From NCBI RefSeq assembly GCF_004320535.1, contig NZ_SIHY01000002.1:1-64000 (forward strand): a stretch of DNA of 64,000 nt, in the 5' to 3' direction. Positions within the stretch are counted from its first letter, which is position 1; each line of letters opens with the position of its first letter. A program made the position numbers and the translations under genes. The notes under the pieces are model-generated. The model worked only from the letters and a program-made list of their open reading frames with translations. It made no database searches and was not told where the DNA came from. Shown piece after piece: positions 20,547-29,003 of the stretch. This stretch comes from Arthrobacter sp. S41 (GTDB lineage: Bacteria > Actinomycetota > Actinomycetes > Actinomycetales > Micrococcaceae).

Positions 20547-23500
20547 GTGAAAGCGATGGATCCGTTCAAAATGAACAACGATCAAACTCCTGTACCGGAT
20601 CAAGAAATTTACACCCCACAATTTCCTTCCGGTGCATTAGCTCCGGCTGCCCGTACCCTCATAGACATTCTCCAGAACACCGCGCAGGCTCACCCCGACG
20701 CGGCGGCTATTGACGACGGCGAGCGCACCGAGAGTTACGCAGAGTTGCTCCTTGAGGTCAAGGCCAAGGCGCTGCGCCTCCACGAGCAAGGTTTGGGAGC
20801 TGGCGACCGCGTTGGCGTACGTGTTGAGTCCGGAACTCGTCACCTATATGAGTGGATCTTGGCGATTCTCTGGGTCGGCGCCGCCTACGTTCCGGTAGAC
20901 GCCGATGACCCGGACGAACGTGCCAAAACGGTATTTACCGAAGCGCAAGTTGCCGGAATCGTTAAGGGTACGGACACCATCGTGGTGGATGCCGCCCGGC
21001 CAAAGCCATTTCCTGTTCCGCGTCTGCCAGATCTTCAAGACGACGCGTGGATCATCTTCACCTCAGGTTCCACTGGCAAGCCCAAGGGTGTTGCCGTTTC
21101 CCATCGATCAGCGGCCGCGTTTGTTGATGCTGAAGCCAAGATGTTTTTACCGGTTGATCCGCTAAACACCACAGACCGCGTGCTTGCTGGGCTATCCGTA
21201 GCTTTTGATGCATCCTGCGAAGAAATGTGGATTGCTTGGCGCAATGGCGCCTGCCTCGTCCCCGCCCCGCGCGCCCTCGTGCGCAGCGGCATGGACCTCG
21301 GGCCCTGGCTGATTTCTCGTTCCATCACCGCAGTGTCCACCGTTCCCACCTTGGCAGCACTATGGCCGGCCCAAGCCTTGGATTCGGTTCGCCTGCTGAT
21401 TTTTGGTGGCGAAGCCTGTCCACCGGAACTAGCCGCACGACTGGCCACCGAAGGCCGCGAAGTGTGGAACACCTATGGACCTACCGAAGCAACCGTTGTC
21501 GCCTGCGGCGCCACCATGGACGGCAGCCTTCCGGTACGCATCGGCTTGCCGCTGGACGGATGGGATCTGGCAGTCGTTGACCCTGCGGGTATTCCGGTTG
21601 CCGAAGGCGAATCTGGTGAATTGATCATTGGCGGCGTGGGACTGGCCCGCTACCTTGATCCTGAAAAAGACGCAGAGAAATACGCACCGATGCCCACACT
21701 TGGCTGGAAGCGCGCCTATCGTTCCGGCGACATGGTCATCAATGATCCGCTGGGTTTGATCTTTATTGGTCGTGTTGACGATCAGGTGAAAATCGGTGGA
21801 CGGCGCATTGAACTTGGTGAGATCGACGCAGTGCTGAACTCTCTGGTCGGAGTATCTTCGGCCGCTGTCGCGGTCCGTGAAACGGCTACCGGCAACAAGA
21901 TCCTTGTCGGTTATTTGCAAGCATCCCAAGACTACGATCTGTCCGCTGCACGCACCGCCCTGTTAGAAGACCTGCCAGCACCAATGGTTCCGATCCTTGC
22001 GGTCATGGATAACCTGCCGATGAAGACCAGTGGCAAGGTAGACCGCAACGCATTGCCTTGGCCGCTACCGGGATCTGAAAACACCGAACAGTCCCAAGAT
22101 CTTCCCCCGCTGGATGAAGTTGGCGAATTTATTGCCGAGGCATGGCAAGGGGCACTCGGTGCACCCGTATCCGGAATTGACGCTGACTTCTTTGCTTCCG
22201 GCGGAGGTTCGCTCTCTGCTGCCCAGCTGGTCTCGGCATTGCGCGTTCGCTACCCAGACCTGACGGTTGCCGAACTCTACGACTACCCGCGATTCGGCGC
22301 TCTTGTTGAGTATCTGGGCGGTCAACAGGTATCAAGTGAACCGGTGGAACCGCGCACGGTTCTTCGCACCAAGCGCCTGACCCAGTTGGCGCAAACCCTG
22401 GTCGCCTTCCCGCTGTTTATTCTCTCCGGACTGCGTTGGGTCACCTTCCTGTTGCTCGGACACCTAGTCCTCGTGGCCATGAACGTTTTTGAAGACCCCT
22501 TGCCAACCCCTTGGTACGTGATAGCCGGACTGTGGCTGGTGTTCGTGACTCCACTTGGCCGCATGAGCTTGTCAATCCTGGCCAATAAACTCTTGCTACG
22601 CGGACTGAAACCCGGAACTTATCCTCGTTCAGGATCCGTGCACCTGCGTCTTTGGTTGGCCCAGCATGTCGCTGATGTTGTTGACCCGATTTCCCTTTCC
22701 AGCGCACCATTACTGCCTTGGTACGCTCGGATGCTCGGCGCAAAAATTGACCGCACCGCGACAATCCATTCCTTGCCACCGGTCACCGGCATGCTCACCG
22801 TAGGCCCCGGCGCCACCATTGAACCGGAAGTTGACGTCAGTGGCTACTGGATCGACGGCGACAAACTGCATGTGGGCACCATCGAGGTGGGCGCCCATGC
22901 CTCCATTGGTGCACGCAGTACCCTGACTCCCGGCTCAGTCATCGGGGCGAACACCATTGTTGATGCGGGATCAGCCGTCTATGGAACGACCCGTGATAAC
23001 TCCCGCTATGCCGGTTCCCCGGCAACCAGAGAGTCCAAGGCCAAACCAAAATGGCCCGAGCAGGAACCTGCCTATCGTAAATTGCCGCGACTACTCGGCG
23101 GGCTCGCTTCAGTCTTGCTCAACCTGACACAGTGGATCCCGATTCTTCTGGCACTGCTTGCGCTCACCCCAGTCTTGCGGCCAGCACCTTCGTTAGCTGA
23201 AATCGGCTGTCGCTTTATCCCTGCCGTTGTGGTGGCGGCCATTGTCTGGTTCTTGAGCAGCATGGTGCTCACCATCATCATCGTGCGCCTGCTATCCATC
23301 GGCCTGGTCGAAGGATGGCATCCGGTCACTTCCCGCGTGGGTTGGCAAGCATGGGCCACCGAACGCGTACTTGATACCGCTCGTGATCAGCTCTTCCCGC
23401 TGTATGCCTCACTATTCACCCCGATCTGGCTACGTTTGCTCGGCGCCAAGGTGGGTCGTGACGTCGAAATTTCCACTGTTCTGCTCATTCCCAAGATGAC

Positions 23501-24506
23501 CACTATTTCCTCCGGCGCGTTCTTGGCCGACGACACCATGGTGGCCTCCTACGAACTAGGTGGCGGGTGGATGCATATCGCCCCGGTCCGCATTGGTAAA
23601 AAGGCGTTCCTGGGCAACTCAGGCATCTTGCATGCCGGTCGCAGAGTCCCCAAGCGTTCGTTGATCGCAGTATTGTCCGCTACCCCGAAGAAGATGAAGG
23701 CTGGCACTTCTTGGATCGGTTCGCCTCCACATAAGTTGCGCCGTACCACCGTGGAAGCCGAATCCGAGCGGACCTATCAGCCAGGGTTGAAGCTAAAGAT
23801 CATGCGTTCCTTCTGGGAACTGACCCGTTCGCTGGCGGTCTTCACCACCGTAGCCATCGCCGGTGGAGTGCTGTGGGCGCTAGCTGCATTGATCACCTCC
23901 ACCAACGTGTGGCTGAGCATCCTGCTCAGTGGCGCAGTACTCGTAGCTGCCGGAGCATTGGCAGCACTGATCGCAGTGGCGGCCAAATGGCTTGTAGTTG
24001 GCGCCATCCGCCCAAGTGAACACACACTGTGGAGCTCATTTATCTGGCGCACCGAAATGGTCGATTCCTTCACCGAACTTGTGTGCGCACAATGGTTTGC
24101 ACGCTTGGCTTCAGGCACTCCGGCCTTGGTCTGGTTCCTACGCGCCCAAGGGGCCAAGATTGGGCACGGCGTCTGGTGCGAAAGCTACTGGCTGCCCGAA
24201 GCCGATCTCGTCACTCTGGAAGACCATTCAACGGTCAACCGTGGTTCGGTCCTACAGACTCACTTGTTCCACGACCGCATCATGTCCATCGACAAGGTCA
24301 CCCTAGGTGCGGGAGCTACCCTGGGCCCGCATAGTGTCATCTTGCCAGCGGCCAAGATCTCCGAAGGTACAACCACCGGTCCAGCCAGTTTGGTTCTGCG
24401 CGGAGAGGTACTGCCTGCCAATACCTATTGGCGGGGCAACCCCGCAGTACGCTGGAACATCAAGCCAGTTGAACAACCAACGCAACCAGTCGCGCACGAA
24501 GCCTGA
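20547..24506 (+). CDS. Pls-type single-module peptide polymerase (A-T-membrane-beta-helix synthetase)
   Basis: Resembles epsilon-poly-L-lysine synthetase (Pls), a membrane NRPS-like enzyme that links one amino acid type into a homopolymer without a normal condensation domain. Adenylation domain about 30-505: A3 FTSGSTGKPKG (171-181), A5 NTYGPTE (308-314), A7 YRSGD (391-395), A8 GRVDDQVKIGGRRIELGE, A10 Lys497. Carrier domain about 520-592 with phosphopantetheine Ser555 (FFASGGGSLS). Then six predicted membrane segments (about 617-645, 655-672, 850-876, 888-918, 1095-1120, 1122-1150) flanking three hexapeptide/LbH-like soluble domains (about 725-825, 955-1060, 1195-1300). The inferred binding-pocket code is DAESIGTVVK; its third-position Glu suggests a basic amino acid. 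GTG 20547, ATG 20556 and ATG 20571 are possible starts. Family assignment is firm; polymer identity is inferred. Confidence 0.85.
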   Translation: MKAMDPFKMNNDQTPVPDQEIYTPQFPSGALAPAARTLIDILQNTAQAHPDAAAIDDGERTESYAELLLEVKAKALRLHEQGLGAGDRVGVRVESGTRHLYEWILAILWVGAAYVPVDADDPDERAKTVFTEAQVAGIVKGTDTIVVDAARPKPFPVPRLPDLQDDAWIIFTSGSTGKPKGVAVSHRSAAAFVDAEAKMFLPVDPLNTTDRVLAGLSVAFDASCEEMWIAWRNGACLVPAPRALVRSGMDLGPWLISRSITAVSTVPTLAALWPAQALDSVRLLIFGGEACPPELAARLATEGREVWNTYGPTEATVVACGATMDGSLPVRIGLPLDGWDLAVVDPAGIPVAEGESGELIIGGVGLARYLDPEKDAEKYAPMPTLGWKRAYRSGDMVINDPLGLIFIGRVDDQVKIGGRRIELGEIDAVLNSLVGVSSAAVAVRETATGNKILVGYLQASQDYDLSAARTALLEDLPAPMVPILAVMDNLPMKTSGKVDRNALPWPLPGSENTEQSQDLPPLDEVGEFIAEAWQGALGAPVSGIDADFFASGGGSLSAAQLVSALRVRYPDLTVAELYDYPRFGALVEYLGGQQVSSEPVEPRTVLRTKRLTQLAQTLVAFPLFILSGLRWVTFLLLGHLVLVAMNVFEDPLPTPWYVIAGLWLVFVTPLGRMSLSILANKLLLRGLKPGTYPRSGSVHLRLWLAQHVADVVDPISLSSAPLLPWYARMLGAKIDRTATIHSLPPVTGMLTVGPGATIEPEVDVSGYWIDGDKLHVGTIEVGAHASIGARSTLTPGSVIGANTIVDAGSAVYGTTRDNSRYAGSPATRESKAKPKWPEQEPAYRKLPRLLGGLASVLLNLTQWIPILLALLALTPVLRPAPSLAEIGCRFIPAVVVAAIVWFLSSMVLTIIIVRLLSIGLVEGWHPVTSRVGWQAWATERVLDTARDQLFPLYASLFTPIWLRLLGAKVGRDVEISTVLLIPKMTTISSGAFLADDTMVASYELGGGWMHIAPVRIGKKAFLGNSGILHAGRRVPKRSLIAVLSATPKKMKAGTSWIGSPPHKLRRTTVEAESERTYQPGLKLKIMRSFWELTRSLAVFTTVAIAGGVLWALAALITSTNVWLSILLSGAVLVAAGALAALIAVAAKWLVVGAIRPSEHTLWSSFIWRTEMVDSFTELVCAQWFARLASGTPALVWFLRAQGAKIGHGVWCESYWLPEADLVTLEDHSTVNRGSVLQTHLFHDRIMSIDKVTLGAGATLGPHSVILPAAKISEGTTTGPASLVLRGEVLPANTYWRGNPAVRWNIKPVEQPTQPVAHEA

Positions 24507-24520
24507 GGATACGTAGAGAT

Positions 24521-25822
24521 ATGCCCCATCGCATTTTGGATGAGTACACCAAACACTATGGCTCCGGAAGCTACACGGTAGAGCATTACGACGTGAACTT
24601 AGTGGTCAAACTTGCCAGTAATCACCTTGATGGCCGAGCCACCCTACGTATACGAGCGCTCGAAGACCTGAACGAAATTGAACTGAACCTCAACGGGCTA
24701 AAAATCGTCAAAGCCACATGCCAAGGTCGCAAGGTTTCTGTCAGCAAAAAGCACCACAGAGTAGTTGTTGCCACCCCAAGCCGGGTCAAAGCCGGGGATC
24801 AGATCGAACTTCAATTGCGCTACGGAGGTAACCCCAGCGTAGATAACGGACAGTGGGGCGAGGTCGGCTGGGAAGAGTTAACCGACGGTATTTTGGTGTC
24901 CGGACAACCAGTGGGCGCTTCAACTTGGTTCCCCTGCAATGACCACCCGAGTCACAAGTCTTCGTATCGTTTTGAGGTTTCTACCGACGCCGGCTACCGG
25001 GTTGTTGCCAACGGCGAGTTGATGGATCATCGCCGTTCGGCAAGCCGAAATACGTGGGTTTATGAGGCACGTGAACCAATGGCAACCTACTTGGCAACCT
25101 TGCAGATTGGCCGCTACGCAGAAATTTCCTTTGACCGTGGTGGACACCTGCTGGCTTACTCCGTACCGGGCAATGACCTCGCGGTGCGCGGAGCCTTTGC
25201 GAAGCAAGCTGACATGGCACAAATCTTTGAACTGAAGTTCGGCCCTTATCCCTTTGAACATTACAAGATTGTTGTTGTTGACGATGACCTTGAGATTCCG
25301 TTGGAAGCCCAAGGCATGAGCATTTTCGGCCGGAACCATTTGTCGTTGGAATGGGAAGACCAACGACTGATCGCTCACGAATTTGCCCATCAGTGGTTTG
25401 GCAATTCGCTGACCCCCGAGCGGTGGAAAGACATTTGGCTCAACGAAGGATTCGCTTGCTTCAGCGAGTGGGTCTATTCAGATCAGGCAAAGATCATGTC
25501 CCTCGAACAGCGTGCTCGCACGGCTTGGGAAATGCTCGATGGCCTCCCCCAAGATCTGCAGGTCGGTGATCCGGGCCCCGAAGACATGTTTGATGACCGC
25601 GTGTACAAGCGCGGTGCGCTCACGCTCTACGCTCTGTTGACGGCTCTTGGTGACAAGACTTTTTACGCCATGCTCCAGGACTGGACCAGCACATATCAGC
25701 ATGCTTCTGTGAACACAGAGAAGTTTGCCAAACACGTAAAAAAGCATGCGACGAACGTCGACGTTGAAGGAATCTTGACTGCTTGGTTAACCGAACAAAG
25801 GTTGCCTGATTTCCCGGCATAG
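24521..25822 (+). CDS. Compact M1-family zinc aminopeptidase
   Basis: Cytoplasmic metallopeptidase with HEFAH (286-290) and Glu309 (NEG) forming the HExxH-x18-E zinc site, plus the catalytic Tyr region YKRGALTLY (about Tyr362). The substrate-anchoring GAMEN loop of classical M1 enzymes is replaced by LEAQGMS (about 261-267). At 433 aa it lacks the large C-terminal helical domain of PepN/ERAP. No signal peptide. It starts 14 nt after the synthetase stop with GAGGA upstream, so it is probably co-transcribed. Zinc aminopeptidases of this type are, as I recall, reported as epsilon-polylysine-degrading enzymes in producer strains; a degrading or self-protection role here is an inference. Confidence 0.9.
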   Translation: MPHRILDEYTKHYGSGSYTVEHYDVNLVVKLASNHLDGRATLRIRALEDLNEIELNLNGLKIVKATCQGRKVSVSKKHHRVVVATPSRVKAGDQIELQLRYGGNPSVDNGQWGEVGWEELTDGILVSGQPVGASTWFPCNDHPSHKSSYRFEVSTDAGYRVVANGELMDHRRSASRNTWVYEAREPMATYLATLQIGRYAEISFDRGGHLLAYSVPGNDLAVRGAFAKQADMAQIFELKFGPYPFEHYKIVVVDDDLEIPLEAQGMSIFGRNHLSLEWEDQRLIAHEFAHQWFGNSLTPERWKDIWLNEGFACFSEWVYSDQAKIMSLEQRARTAWEMLDGLPQDLQVGDPGPEDMFDDRVYKRGALTLYALLTALGDKTFYAMLQDWTSTYQHASVNTEKFAKHVKKHATNVDVEGILTAWLTEQRLPDFPA

Positions 25823-25888
25823 CCTCGCGCCATTCCAGTTCAGTACGAGTTCACTAACCGTTCATTCTGAAATTTTAGGCTGAGAAGT

Positions 25889-26785
25889 ATGAGTGTAGAA
25901 GTCCCCCTGCTTGACGAAGCGTTCCGCGGTTTTTCGGTGCTTGACGACGATGATGACGACCCAGTGTTGTTGCGCGCCGACGGAACTGTCGTTGACACGT
26001 GGCGTGAAGATTACCCTTACAACGAGAAGCTTGACCGTGATACTTACGAAGTTGAAAAACGTGCCCTGCAAATTGAGCTGCTGAAGCTTCAAAAATGGGT
26101 TAAGGCCAACGGGCGTCGCATCATGATTGTTTTTGAAGGCCGTGACGCAGCGGGTAAGGGCGGCACGATCAAGCGTTTCACCGAGCATTTGAATCCGCGC
26201 GGTGCTCGTGTGGTGGCGCTGGAGAAACCCAGCGAACGTGAATCAACTCAGTGGTACTACCAGCGTTATGTGCAACATTTCCCCTCAGCCGGGGAAATCG
26301 TTCTCTTTGACCGATCTTGGTACAACAGGGCCGGAGTAGAGCGCGTGATGGGTTTCTGCACTCCGGAACAGGTAGATCACTTTCTTGAGCAGACTCCATC
26401 CTTTGAAAAGATGGTGGTCGACGAAGGCATCGATCTAGTGAAGTTCTGGTTCTCGGTCTCTTCTAGTGAACAGCTCACTCGCTTCACGATTCGCCGCATT
26501 GACCCAGTGCGCCAGTGGAAGCTCTCCCCCATGGATCTTGAATCTTTGGATAAATGGGAGAAGTACACGGAAGCAAAGAAAGAAATGTTCCTCAAGACTG
26601 ATACCGATCATGCTCCGTGGACCGTGGTGAAGTCTAATGACAAAAAGCGAGCCCGACTCCAAGCGATGCGACACGTGCTTGATCTCTTTGACTACAAGGG
26701 AAAAGATCATGACCTGGTTGGTTCCCCTGACCCACACATCGTGGGACGCGCTGCCAATGTCATCACACACGGTGAAGAATTCTAG
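25889..26785 (+). CDS. ppk2: Polyphosphate kinase 2 (class I type)
   Basis: Transfers phosphate from polyphosphate to nucleoside diphosphates (ADP to ATP or GDP to GTP). It has the single-domain PPK2 fold with Walker A FEGRDAAGKGG (about residues 81-91), the Walker B region VLFDRSWYNRAGVE and the lid-like RRIDPVRQWKLSP. The resemblance is to the ADP-using class I rather than AMP-using enzymes. Acidic N-terminal stretch DDDDDD. Length is 298 aa. It follows the peptidase by 66 nt; TAGGCT lies 7 nt before the ATG, so it may also have its own leaderless promoter. It could regenerate ATP for the adenylation domain, which is an inference from position. Confidence 0.93.
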   Translation: MSVEVPLLDEAFRGFSVLDDDDDDPVLLRADGTVVDTWREDYPYNEKLDRDTYEVEKRALQIELLKLQKWVKANGRRIMIVFEGRDAAGKGGTIKRFTEHLNPRGARVVALEKPSERESTQWYYQRYVQHFPSAGEIVLFDRSWYNRAGVERVMGFCTPEQVDHFLEQTPSFEKMVVDEGIDLVKFWFSVSSSEQLTRFTIRRIDPVRQWKLSPMDLESLDKWEKYTEAKKEMFLKTDTDHAPWTVVKSNDKKRARLQAMRHVLDLFDYKGKDHDLVGSPDPHIVGRAANVITHGEEF

Positions 26786-26793
26786 CTCCGCAC

Positions 26794-27489
26794 CTAGCAC
26801 ACCGCCGCTAGCGGAACGGTAATGCAGGTCCCCAGCAGCCCTTGGCCGCTCGGGCCTTCTGCTATCCAGCGCCCATTCATCACCGTGAGATCATGCTCTG
26901 CGGCAACCGATCCTTTGGCCTGAATTTCAGCGTGGAAACTGTGGGCCTGCGCATCAAGGATAATCCGGCATTCCAAGAAATCCAGCCACTGCCTAGTCAG
27001 CGGGAACCATGCTTTGAAGACACTTTCCTTGGCACTGAAAATCAGCCGATCCCAGGCCGTTTCCGGATAGCGCGAATTTAGCTCGCCAACCATCCGTTGT
27101 TCTTCGGGAAGCAAAATGATGTCGAGGGTTTCGGCAGGCAGTGAAGCATGTAATTCGGCGTCGATGCCAAGACCGCGAATATCGTTGGTGGAGGCTACTG
27201 CGGCTGCCCGAAAGCCAACACAATGGGTCATGCTCCCCACAACGCCAGCGGGCCAAACCGGTGCCCGTTTTTCATCGGGAACCAAGGCAATACCCGCATG
27301 ACCCAGTTGCCCCAACGCTCGGCGAGCGCAGACCCGGACGGTACGAAATTCATGCTGTCGTTCAGGCACCGCATTGGCGATATACCGTTCTTCTTCTCCA
27401 TAGGATTCGGTATCCTCCAGCTCGGTACGGGACTGAACTACGTACACCGAAGACGGCAAGAGCGATGCGAAGATATCGTTGCCTTTCAT
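26794..27489 (-). CDS. 4'-phosphopantetheinyl transferase (Sfp/EntD type)
   Basis: Transfers phosphopantetheine from CoA to a Ser of carrier domains. Motifs: WPAGVVGSMTHC (P1b), GLGIDAE (P2, metal-binding Asp and Glu) and FSAKESVFKAWFP (P3, KEsxxK). Length is 231 aa. It faces the ppk2 gene with only about 8 nt between stop codons, in a locus with a synthetase that needs Ser555 loaded, so that synthetase is the obvious client. It overlaps the upstream DUF5129-type gene in TAATG, suggesting coupled translation. A broader role on other carrier proteins is possible. Confidence 0.9.
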   Translation of the reverse strand: MKGNDIFASLLPSSVYVVQSRTELEDTESYGEEERYIANAVPERQHEFRTVRVCARRALGQLGHAGIALVPDEKRAPVWPAGVVGSMTHCVGFRAAAVASTNDIRGLGIDAELHASLPAETLDIILLPEEQRMVGELNSRYPETAWDRLIFSAKESVFKAWFPLTRQWLDFLECRIILDAQAHSFHAEIQAKGSVAAEHDLTVMNGRWIAEGPSGQGLLGTCITVPLAAVC

Positions 27490-29003
27490 TAGAAGTGGGA
27501 AGACCCACCCGAACCGGAGAAGCTTCCGCCACCAGAGTATCCGCCCGACACTCCCCCAGAGGAACTCGCTGCTTCACGCGAGGCAGTCACTGCACTGACG
27601 CCCGTGGAATATCCGTGGTTATAACTACCCACGCGCCAATACATCGTAGCGGGATTCAGCACGTCCAAGATGGTGCCCGAGCGACCCGAAAACGCGCCGG
27701 TTTCATATCGGGATTTCTTAAGCGCCGATTGCATATCGGCCTTCTCTTCTACGTTTTGTGCATACACTTCGATTTGCGCTTGAGCGAAGATATCCAACTT
27801 TTCGCTCAGCTCGGCACGCAAGGCAGATAATCCATCGAGCGCTTGATCCACGGTGATTGATTCTTGCGTCAGCTGTGCCGACAGCTCGTTGAGTTTGGTG
27901 ATTGCTATTTCCCGGTAGGAAGTCAATGCGGCTGCACTGCCCTGCAGCTCTGGTTCGAGATCATGGACCAATCCCTTGATCTCCTCCAGGTCATCTTCCA
28001 GCGGCTTGATCTGTGCATGCCATGCGTCTTGCCAGGAGGCCGAACGAGTATAGAGCGCAGACGCAGCGATGATGGCGTCATCGGTCAGATCCAGGGACTG
28101 CGCTGACTCCCGGAACTCCTTAGTAAGGCGAACACCTTCGGCGCTGGAACGTTCCTTTTTGTTTGAACTTTCTAGCGACTGCTGGGCTTCGAAGCAGGCA
28201 CGGTATTTGGTCATGAACTTGCTGAAACGCTGTTCCAGCTCGGAGGCGTGCGCTGAAGTGGACGGCAGTGTACGGGCCGCCAATTCGGTTTCTTCTAAGT
28301 CCATGGTGACGTTGGTCAGATGCACGGATCCTTGTTGCAGTTCTTCTGCAAAAGTTTCTCGTCGTGTGGACCGGGTATGCAGTGCAAAGCCACCCACGAT
28401 GAGAGCGACAAATCCACCGACACCACTGGTGATCCATAAGGCCGGGTGCTGGTACCAGGGGCGATTCATGATCACGGATGCTTGGTCGGCGACAGCGATG
28501 ACGCCGTCAGTCCAACGGGAAAGATTAAAGTCATCGTGGCCAGCTTCATGGATGCTCTCTATGGCGCTCTCGGAGACTTTACGGTCTTCGCCGAAGTACG
28601 TTCCGATCTGTCCATCTCCCGGTCCTTCGATGGACAGGGTGATGATCAATAGTCCGTCGGCCCAGTAGTCGCCGTAGTCTTCAGGCTTGTCAGATATCCA
28701 TTCCGGATGTGATGACTTAGCGTAATCAAGAGTTTTGGTGTTGATGTCATCGGAGTATTCGCCGTTGCGGGCATAAATTGCAACGTCTGTTGGCTCGTTA
28801 AAATCGAGGTCTTCCAAGGCGTCGCGCAGCCGCTGCTTATTAAGTTTTCCCGTGGAGTCATCGATGGTGACCGATTCTAGGTTCTGCCCGGCTGCGACTT
28901 GCACTGAGTTGGCCGCTTGCGCGGCAGGCAGGACTCCGATCAGCCCCAAGGAGAGCACCGTTAAGGCACCGACTAGTGAAATGTTCCAAGTTCGTGGGCC
29001 CAT
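27489..29003 (-). CDS. Secreted/membrane DUF5129 (TPM-like) protein
   Basis: Exported protein with a Sec signal peptide (about residues 1-30, cleavage near AQAAN), an extracellular TPM/DUF5129-like domain (about 40-175, TDVAIYARNGEYSDD), one membrane segment (about 189-207), a long helical cytoplasmic region (about 210-430) and a Gly/Ser-rich tail ending SSHF. The tail is like that of TPM-domain proteins. AAGGAGA precedes the ATG. Function is unknown. It is coupled to the PPTase gene (TAATG overlap). Its link with the synthetase cluster rests on position only. Confidence 0.75.
   Translation of the reverse strand: MGPRTWNISLVGALTVLSLGLIGVLPAAQAANSVQVAAGQNLESVTIDDSTGKLNKQRLRDALEDLDFNEPTDVAIYARNGEYSDDINTKTLDYAKSSHPEWISDKPEDYGDYWADGLLIITLSIEGPGDGQIGTYFGEDRKVSESAIESIHEAGHDDFNLSRWTDGVIAVADQASVIMNRPWYQHPALWITSGVGGFVALIVGGFALHTRSTRRETFAEELQQGSVHLTNVTMDLEETELAARTLPSTSAHASELEQRFSKFMTKYRACFEAQQSLESSNKKERSSAEGVRLTKEFRESAQSLDLTDDAIIAASALYTRSASWQDAWHAQIKPLEDDLEEIKGLVHDLEPELQGSAAALTSYREIAITKLNELSAQLTQESITVDQALDGLSALRAELSEKLDIFAQAQIEVYAQNVEEKADMQSALKKSRYETGAFSGRSGTILDVLNPATMYWRVGSYNHGYSTGVSAVTASREAASSSGGVSGGYSGGGSFSGSGGSSHF

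Follow-up and report, generated by a model that had tools for sequence, protein, structure and literature searches.

The window analysed here is a stretch of 64,000 nucleotides from Arthrobacter sp. S41 (contig NZ_SIHY01000002.1, positions 1 to 64,000). Between positions 20,547 and 29,003 it carries the gene of a synthetase of the epsilon-poly-L-lysine type (Pls), together with the genes of an aminopeptidase of the M1 family, a polyphosphate kinase (PPK2), a 4'-phosphopantetheinyl transferase (PPTase) and a DUF5129 protein (Table 1). Epsilon-poly-lysine is an antimicrobial polymer that serves as a natural food preservative. From the gene content, the domains, the identity of the substrate pocket and the conserved neighbourhood observed here, the stretch is probably an epsilon-poly-L-lysine locus of Glutamicibacter, in which synthesis and degradation of the polymer are joined by carrier loading through the PPTase and by ATP support from polyphosphate through PPK2. 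All five open reading frames of the initial annotation, with the 14-nt gap and the opposed PPTase and DUF5129 genes, were recovered at their positions; their families matched as well, and by sequence comparison the assignments are far above chance. For pls, an alternative in-frame ATG lies three codons downstream of the annotated start. The Rfam scan gave 0 matches at the gathering threshold, and a scan for regulatory sites found 2 promoter-like sites (5.0 expected) and 14 terminator-like sites (9.2 expected). The closest relatives of the Pls (80-91% identical, among the 80 of 545 relatives compared) belong to Glutamicibacter strains and to strains filed as Arthrobacter, so the host is presumably a Glutamicibacter or very close to it.

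Table 1. Features of the locus in the window, and acetyltransferase genes in five divergent Pls-family regions (prefix L, coordinates within the region)
Feature	Location	Strand	Properties
pls	20547..24506	+	1319 aa, epsilon-poly-L-lysine synthetase-type; TIGR02353; top PDB sequence match 7wew
Adenylation domain of pls	20643..22061	+	AMP-binding residues 43-368; pocket D-A-E-S-I-G-T-V-V-K
Carrier (thiolation) domain of pls	22128..22316	+	PP-binding residues 528-590; GGGS serine motif
C-terminal membrane-embedded polymerising region of pls	22389..24446	+	TIGR02353 residues 615-1300
M1-family zinc aminopeptidase, PldII-like (predicted polymer degradation/trimming)	24521..25822	+	433 aa; Peptidase_M1, M1_N
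PPK2, TIGR03707 type (predicted polyphosphate:ADP phosphotransferase)	25889..26785	+	298 aa
Sfp-type 4'-phosphopantetheinyl transferase, predicted activator of Pls carrier	26794..27489	-	231 aa; 4PPT_N, ACPS
DUF5129 protein gene	27489..29003	-	504 aa; DUF5129 468.7 bits
HGSNAT-type acetyltransferase	L144:11047-12309		PF07786 by Pfam
HGSNAT-type acetyltransferase	L184:5068-6297		PF07786 by Pfam
HGSNAT-type acetyltransferase	L185:15293-16531		PF07786 by Pfam
HGSNAT-type acetyltransferase	L145:6826-7971		tblastn
HGSNAT-type acetyltransferase	L220:1946-3067		tblastn

The locus was compared across four sets. The genus set holds 18 genomes, 14 with pls and four without (G003, G008, G009 and G010), the family set 295 Micrococcaceae genomes and the phylum sample 296 genomes. 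The relatives set covers 80 of the 545 relatives' loci, from Glutamicibacter to Nocardia. Within the family, 87 loci from 18 genera (Pls at least 51% identical) were drawn from 99 regions. The twelve excluded regions comprise three without pls (L147, L148, L149), one remnant (L146) and eight with a Pls below 50% identity (L144, L145, L180, L184, L185, L192, L218 and L220). As 30 of 80 family regions had been picked for having PPK2, the frequency of PPK2 there should not be read as a rate.

By its sequence, the 1319-aa protein is a full synthetase of the Pls/PosA family. It matches AMP-binding with 197.2 bits and PP-binding with 40.7 bits (Pfam), and the terminal-domain model NRPS_term_dom (TIGR02353) with 658 bits against a cut-off of 423.1, over model positions 2-695 of 695. 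No condensation or thioesterase domain was detected by Pfam at E-values up to 0.001, where solely AMP-binding, PP-binding and Hexapep appear. The best PDB sequence match is the adenylation domain of epsilon-poly-L-lysine synthase (7wew, 2.2e-183). The synthetase architecture first proposed for this protein is thereby confirmed, and two of its structural details are less certain than proposed. For the six membrane helices, hydropathy yields three hydrophobic blocks (residues ~617-649, 852-925 and 1095-1156), which fit three helix pairs; the single helices are not separated. Of the three hexapeptide-like domains, the first stands: it contains the Hexapep match (28 bits for the whole protein, cut-off 27) and all 60 listed of the 67 profile matches, mostly to beta-helix acyltransferases. 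The third gives a weak Hexapep signal under the cut-off (20.0 bits), and the second has no hexapeptide similarity by Pfam. The TIGR02353 match covers all three.

The ten pocket residues, whose positions we take from GrsA numbering, were read from the alignment and are identical to those of 7WEW (10/10). The same code was found in 179 of the 188 Pls-family loci whose A domain could be matched, a set that counts some loci twice and in which the pocket was likewise read by alignment. The others are DFECLSVVTK (four loci), DAESIGTVIK (two) and three cut or aberrant codes. Among the 87 family loci (Pls 51-91% identical), 86 carry the lysine-type code, and the remaining one, partly readable, agrees. 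Since the pocket equals that of the Streptomyces Pls at all ten positions, L-lysine is predicted with good confidence as the substrate, and epsilon-poly-L-lysine is the predicted product. That this polymer is formed, with an epsilon linkage, is proposed by analogy with Streptomyces albulus and Corynebacterium variabile. PosA, the delta-poly-L-ornithine synthetase of Acinetobacter baumannii, resembles the Pls of the window in family, catalytic plan and the conserved pocket Asp and Glu, but uses ornithine and has Met in the second position of the pocket (PMC10522769). In the same paper, Ala at this position is assigned to lysine, Met to ornithine and Phe to diaminopropionic or diaminobutyric acid (Dap/Dab).

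A polymer of unknown kind, as the initial annotation had it, is contradicted by the pocket shared with S. albulus and by the prior record of the genus: Glutamicibacter and Arthrobacter are among the genera for which Jiang et al. (2021) report Pls homologs with a lysine pocket (PMC8117764). The statement that no product was described in this lineage falls with it. In the S. albulus pls-pldII operon the domain order, the ten-residue pocket and the degrading peptidase gene directly downstream are alike, and the two genes form one operon with a 4-bp overlap (PMC4361855), whereas the window has a 14-nt gap. The window also has the PPTase and PPK2 adjoining, neither of which is mentioned beside S. 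albulus pls in the accessible portion of that paper. The pls-peptidase operon of C. variabile and the coryneform Pls homologs share the architecture, the lysine pocket and the peptidase partner, and the C. variabile product was demonstrated via expression in Streptomyces coelicolor (PMC8117764). Lysine-type clusters have further been reported in Agrococcus and Microbacterium (PMC12067966), and epsilon-polylysine-type clusters appear as class NAPAA in Antarctic actinobacteria (PMC11078813). The locus is therefore not the new kind of system it had been ranked as; the synthetase and the peptidase make up an antimicrobial polymer system already known as an operon from Streptomyces and Corynebacterium, and the find itself is ordinary. 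The main text of PMC8117764 contains neither the term "polyphosphate" nor "phosphopantetheinyl". No description of a natural pls-PPTase or pls-ppk2 linkage was found in a literature search that covered result lists and the passages cited here. The linkage of the PPTase and PPK2 to pls thus appears undescribed, while the enzyme pair is already known.

The peptidase starts 14 nt past the pls stop on the same strand and matches Peptidase_M1 with 103.9 bits and M1_N with 63.2 bits (Pfam). Its zinc site HExxH-18-E is present (HEFAH at 286-290, NEG at 308-310 with E309). A peptidase gene follows pls on the same strand in all 87 family loci, which bears out the co-location in Micrococcaceae that the initial annotation proposed to check. 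It also follows in 79 of the 80 relatives' loci (the contig of the 80th stops 71 nt past pls) and in 14 of 14 matches of the phylum sample, the window's own counted; in four genomes of one genus from that sample the peptidase after pls is 40% identical to that of the window. Within the genus, orthologs of at least 66% identity occur in exactly the 14 of 18 genomes with pls, and by match coordinates they begin 11 to 74 nt past pls in the 13 others. The four pls-free genomes have general M1 enzymes alone (26-29% identity). In S. albulus, translation of pldII is coupled to that of pls, and PldII is the main epsilon-poly-L-lysine-degrading enzyme (PMC9223678; PMC4361855; PMC8117764). The pair in the window is probably the already described pls-pldII pair, and by analogy with the characterised relatives its peptidase would degrade the polymer.

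The window PPTase is recognised by Pfam as 4PPT_N (92.7 bits) and ACPS (48.8 bits). When it was used as a tblastn query, matches were obtained in 11 of the 18 genus genomes, including a truncated remnant in one. A restriction to Glutamicibacter was considered and proved wrong: diverged homologs missed by tblastn were found by clustering of open reading frames and by a dedicated hidden Markov model (HMM). The unbiased clustering around the 87 pls genes revealed a PPTase-like family in 12 further genera. With the HMM, a PPTase-like gene was found in 77 of the 87 family loci, always on the strand opposite pls (downstream in 69, upstream in 8), and here too co-location across Micrococcaceae holds. 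In 7 of 9 loci from genera which we take to be Microbacteriaceae, the same HMM placed such a gene behind the peptidase, and the other two loci end just past the peptidase; the HMM gave no match in the Rhodococcus or Nocardia loci of the relatives set. Ten of these proteins were scanned, and all ten match PF01648 (ACPS) at E-values up to 0.01.

The carrier complement of the genome is small. An own-genome search gave two PP-binding matches, a small acyl carrier protein (102-aa frame) and Pls, with the limit that carriers below the reach of the PP-binding model would be missed. The window PPTase is the sole 4PPT_N match in its genome, next to one further ACPS-family match that is AcpS-like by size. 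Two or more ACPS-family matches occur in each of the 14 pls-positive genomes of the genus. In contrast, the pls-free genomes G003, G009 and G010 have one, and the second match of G008 is a remnant. The simplest reading is that the PPTase serves to prime Pls, a role suggested by linkage, and it is probably dedicated to it.

PPK2 matches the Pfam model PPK2 with 346.1 bits and TIGR03707 with 387.4 bits (cut-off 301.8). It carries the Walker motifs GRDAAGKG at 84 and FDRSWY at 140, and its top PDB match is 5ll0, a polyphosphate kinase 2. It is predicted from its sequence to be of the ADP-phosphorylating type and to form ATP from polyphosphate. In the genus, an ortholog (82-100% identity) occurs in the same 14 of 18 genomes as pls, 1.4 to 1.5 kb past the end of pls in 12 of the 13 others and 4.1 kb past it in G011. 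All family-wide PPK2 counts given here are among the matches listed, and short or weak PPK2 pieces elsewhere may be missed. PPK2 of at least 71% identity over most of its length is present in 44 of the 295 family genomes, and by a comparison of coordinates by eye all 44 have TIGR02353 over the cut-off, as do 163 of the 295. In 43 of the 44 both lie on one contig within 10 kb; in the exception, G204, they are on separate contigs. A separate coordinate comparison, in which PPK2 lies 1.4 to 8.5 kb from pls, confirmed the proximity in 29 of 30 non-genus genomes. In the nine genera concerned, PPK2 is found in 44 of 49 TIGR02353-positive and 0 of 26 negative genomes (counted by eye, with the broken copy of G154 included). 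A Fisher test gives 1.7e-15, a value that ignores kinship and comes from genera picked for having PPK2.

A tree of PPK2 sequences (45 linked to pls, 19 unlinked) has a well-supported branch that sets apart 43 linked sequences, the one from G204 and two unlinked sequences on long branches. The linkage label requires 4 changes on this tree versus 16.7 in shuffles. In G099 and G246, a PPK2 of the other tree group lies near a Pls-family gene. The link between PPK2 and epsilon-poly-L-lysine has an engineered counterpart in S. albulus, where the PPK2 of Corynebacterium glutamicum supports polymer formation by ATP regeneration, the role proposed for the window PPK2 from its linkage (PMC10012588, PMC11274744). 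In contrast to the window, that system is artificial and carries an AMP phosphotransferase as an extra component; the accessible portions of the two papers mention no natural linkage. Co-expression of PPK2 with the AMP phosphotransferase raised epsilon-poly-L-lysine by 21% (PMC10012588), and overexpressed ppk raised both ATP and the titre (PMC10157215).

Taken together, the following mechanism can be proposed. The PPTase would load phosphopantetheine onto the carrier domain of Pls. Pls would then adenylate L-lysine, converting ATP to AMP and pyrophosphate, and hold the lysine as a thioester. The C-terminal membrane domains would join the lysines via the epsilon-amino group and release the polymer. 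Trimming and degradation of the polymer by the M1 peptidase may set the chain length and protect the producer. PPK2 would form ATP from polyphosphate and ADP, the latter derived from AMP via adenylate kinase, and so support the ATP-hungry synthesis.

Several observations weigh against this reading. A PPK2 of the TIGR03707 type presumably uses ADP and not the AMP that is released by Pls. Among the matches listed, 118 of the 163 TIGR02353-positive family genomes lack this PPK2 and one more has a broken copy; its co-location in Micrococcaceae is upheld for 43 of the 44 PPK2 genomes, in nine genera. PPK2 occurs in just 14 of the 80 relatives' loci, all from Glutamicibacter, Paeniglutamicibacter or strains filed as Arthrobacter; no copy was found in that set's loci from Rhodococcus, Nocardia, Microbacterium or Agrococcus. 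It is therefore dispensable. For the PPTase, the HMM detected no such gene in 10 of the 87 family loci, and 5 of the 10 scanned proteins are under the Pfam cut-off, so some may have drifted in function. A 4PPT_N enzyme is absent from four pls-positive genomes of the genus (G002, G011, G013 and G017), whose second match to the ACPS family is of a different kind. Where the PPTase-like gene lies on the other strand between the peptidase and PPK2, as it does in several genera, the genes do not form one operon. Hydropathy indicates no hydrophobic export segment in the peptidase, while PldII is reported to be located outside the cell membrane (PMC9223678). C. variabile with a working gene gave no epsilon-poly-L-lysine in culture (PMC8117764), and the locus of the window may be silent too. 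Finally, the genes can be lost together in one contiguous deletion, as G008 shows for the genus, and linkage could persist by descent.

The last point leads to the rival explanation that survives best, namely that only pls and the peptidase cooperate and that the PPTase and PPK2 are passengers kept at the argC-pheT site by shared descent. The genes argC and pheT flank pls in 66 of the 87 family loci and in 15 of the 18 genera. As this site is kept across genera, pls is old in the lineage rather than a recent import. The pls-linked PPK2s mostly form one tree cluster, PPK2 is missing from most Pls-family-positive genomes among the matches listed, and the co-loss test in the genus has three independent pairs, too few for a decision (p 0.25). 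A tree of the flanking proteins implies three or more gains or losses of pls within the genus. However, the two genes stay near pls even though their positions shift, the PPTase between the downstream and upstream sides and PPK2 over 1.4 to 8.5 kb. The occurrence of PPK2 in the nine genera chosen for it, uncorrected for kinship, likewise follows that of Pls, and no other evident client of the PPTase is present in the window genome. Passenger status is thus considered a serious but somewhat unlikely explanation, and cooperation of all four genes is preferred.

A second alternative accepts the linkage of PPK2 but reverses its reaction, with polyphosphate made as a counter-anion or sink for the cationic polymer instead of being spent for ATP. 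PPK2 reactions are reversible, a long polyanion could be bound by an equally extended polycation as it is made at the membrane, and this PPK2 type is found only in Pls-family-positive genomes (among the matches listed). On the other hand, it is ATP supply that limits epsilon-poly-L-lysine in S. albulus, and overexpression of polyphosphate kinase raises ATP and titre there (PMC10012588, PMC11274744, PMC10157215), which makes the reversed direction very unlikely. The weakest alternative, another cationic homopolymer such as delta-poly-ornithine, gamma-poly-Dab or a beta-lysine polymer, has precedent in the products of the Pls/PosA family elsewhere (PMC10522769, PMC8117764) and in the Phe-type pocket of four family loci, but is hardly to be expected for a synthetase whose ten pocket residues are those of S. 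albulus Pls and of its own relatives, and whose pairing with a peptidase is the gene context of epsilon-poly-L-lysine, unlike that of the other three synthetases (PMC8117764).

The useful part of the find is comparative. The locus is an old one of Micrococcaceae; 77 of the 87 family loci include a PPTase-like gene, and PPK2 lies near Pls in 43 of the 163 Pls-family-positive genomes among the matches listed. If the PPK2 link is functional, it provides a natural energy supply for a process that is ATP-limited in industry. Polylysine would then best be made when polyphosphate is stored, one possible reason for silence in culture. More speculatively, some Micrococcaceae may even have evolved a polyphosphate-powered epsilon-polylysine module, in which a pls-bound lineage of PPK2 regenerates ATP, a dedicated PPTase primes the synthetase and the polycation is secreted; this bolder version is tentative. 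If true, it would be a natural forerunner of the PPK2 engineering in industrial S. albulus.

DUF5129, which had been grouped with the locus, does not belong to it. Its gene occurs in 18 of 18 genus genomes, the four pls-free ones included, and G002, G011 and G013 have it at the opposite side of pls. Being present regardless of pls, it is not linked to pls and was rejected as a member. In the window genome, the start of the PPTase gene overlaps the end of the DUF5129 gene by one base (position 27489), which suggests translational coupling there even though the genus as a whole shows no tie between DUF5129 and pls. Two genomes contain damaged loci. G008 has a deletion scar (L146:10719-11532), where a truncated PPTase (residues 1-183) directly adjoins the first part of Pls (residues 2-91), encoded on the opposite strand, and ppk2, the peptidase and most of pls are gone. 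In G154 (L264), pls, peptidase and ppk2 carry stops or shifts and a quinone reductase match has one stop, with argC and pheT whole; this may be joint decay or sequencing error.

The eight Pls-family loci below 50% identity have no M1 peptidase match (the remnant L146 aside). An HGSNAT-type membrane acetyltransferase lies within the same 20-kb region in five of them (L144, L145, L184, L185 and L220; Table 1); L218 has a partial match at the region edge, and L180 and L192 have none. In L144 the longest HGSNAT-type frame overlaps pls by ~31 nt. Among the peptidase-bearing loci, this acetyltransferase was found in L087 only. As an alternative partner of Pls, the enzyme may acetylate the polymer across the membrane. 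G011 (L144) and G002 (L145) possess a second Pls, 48% identical and with the pocket DAESIGTVIK, which lies apart from the main locus and likewise has no M1 peptidase match. The TIGR02353 synthetases with the pocket DFECLSVVTK are those of L184, L185, L192 and L220. With Phe at the chain-length position, they perhaps make Dab or Dap polymers in Micrococcaceae. Shorter proteins of the TIGR02353 family (frames of 1047-1158 aa) also occur among the family genomes. In L180, similarity to the window Pls is limited to the carrier and terminal regions (query 525-1300, 23%), and a PPK2 gene lies 1.2 kb away on the other strand.

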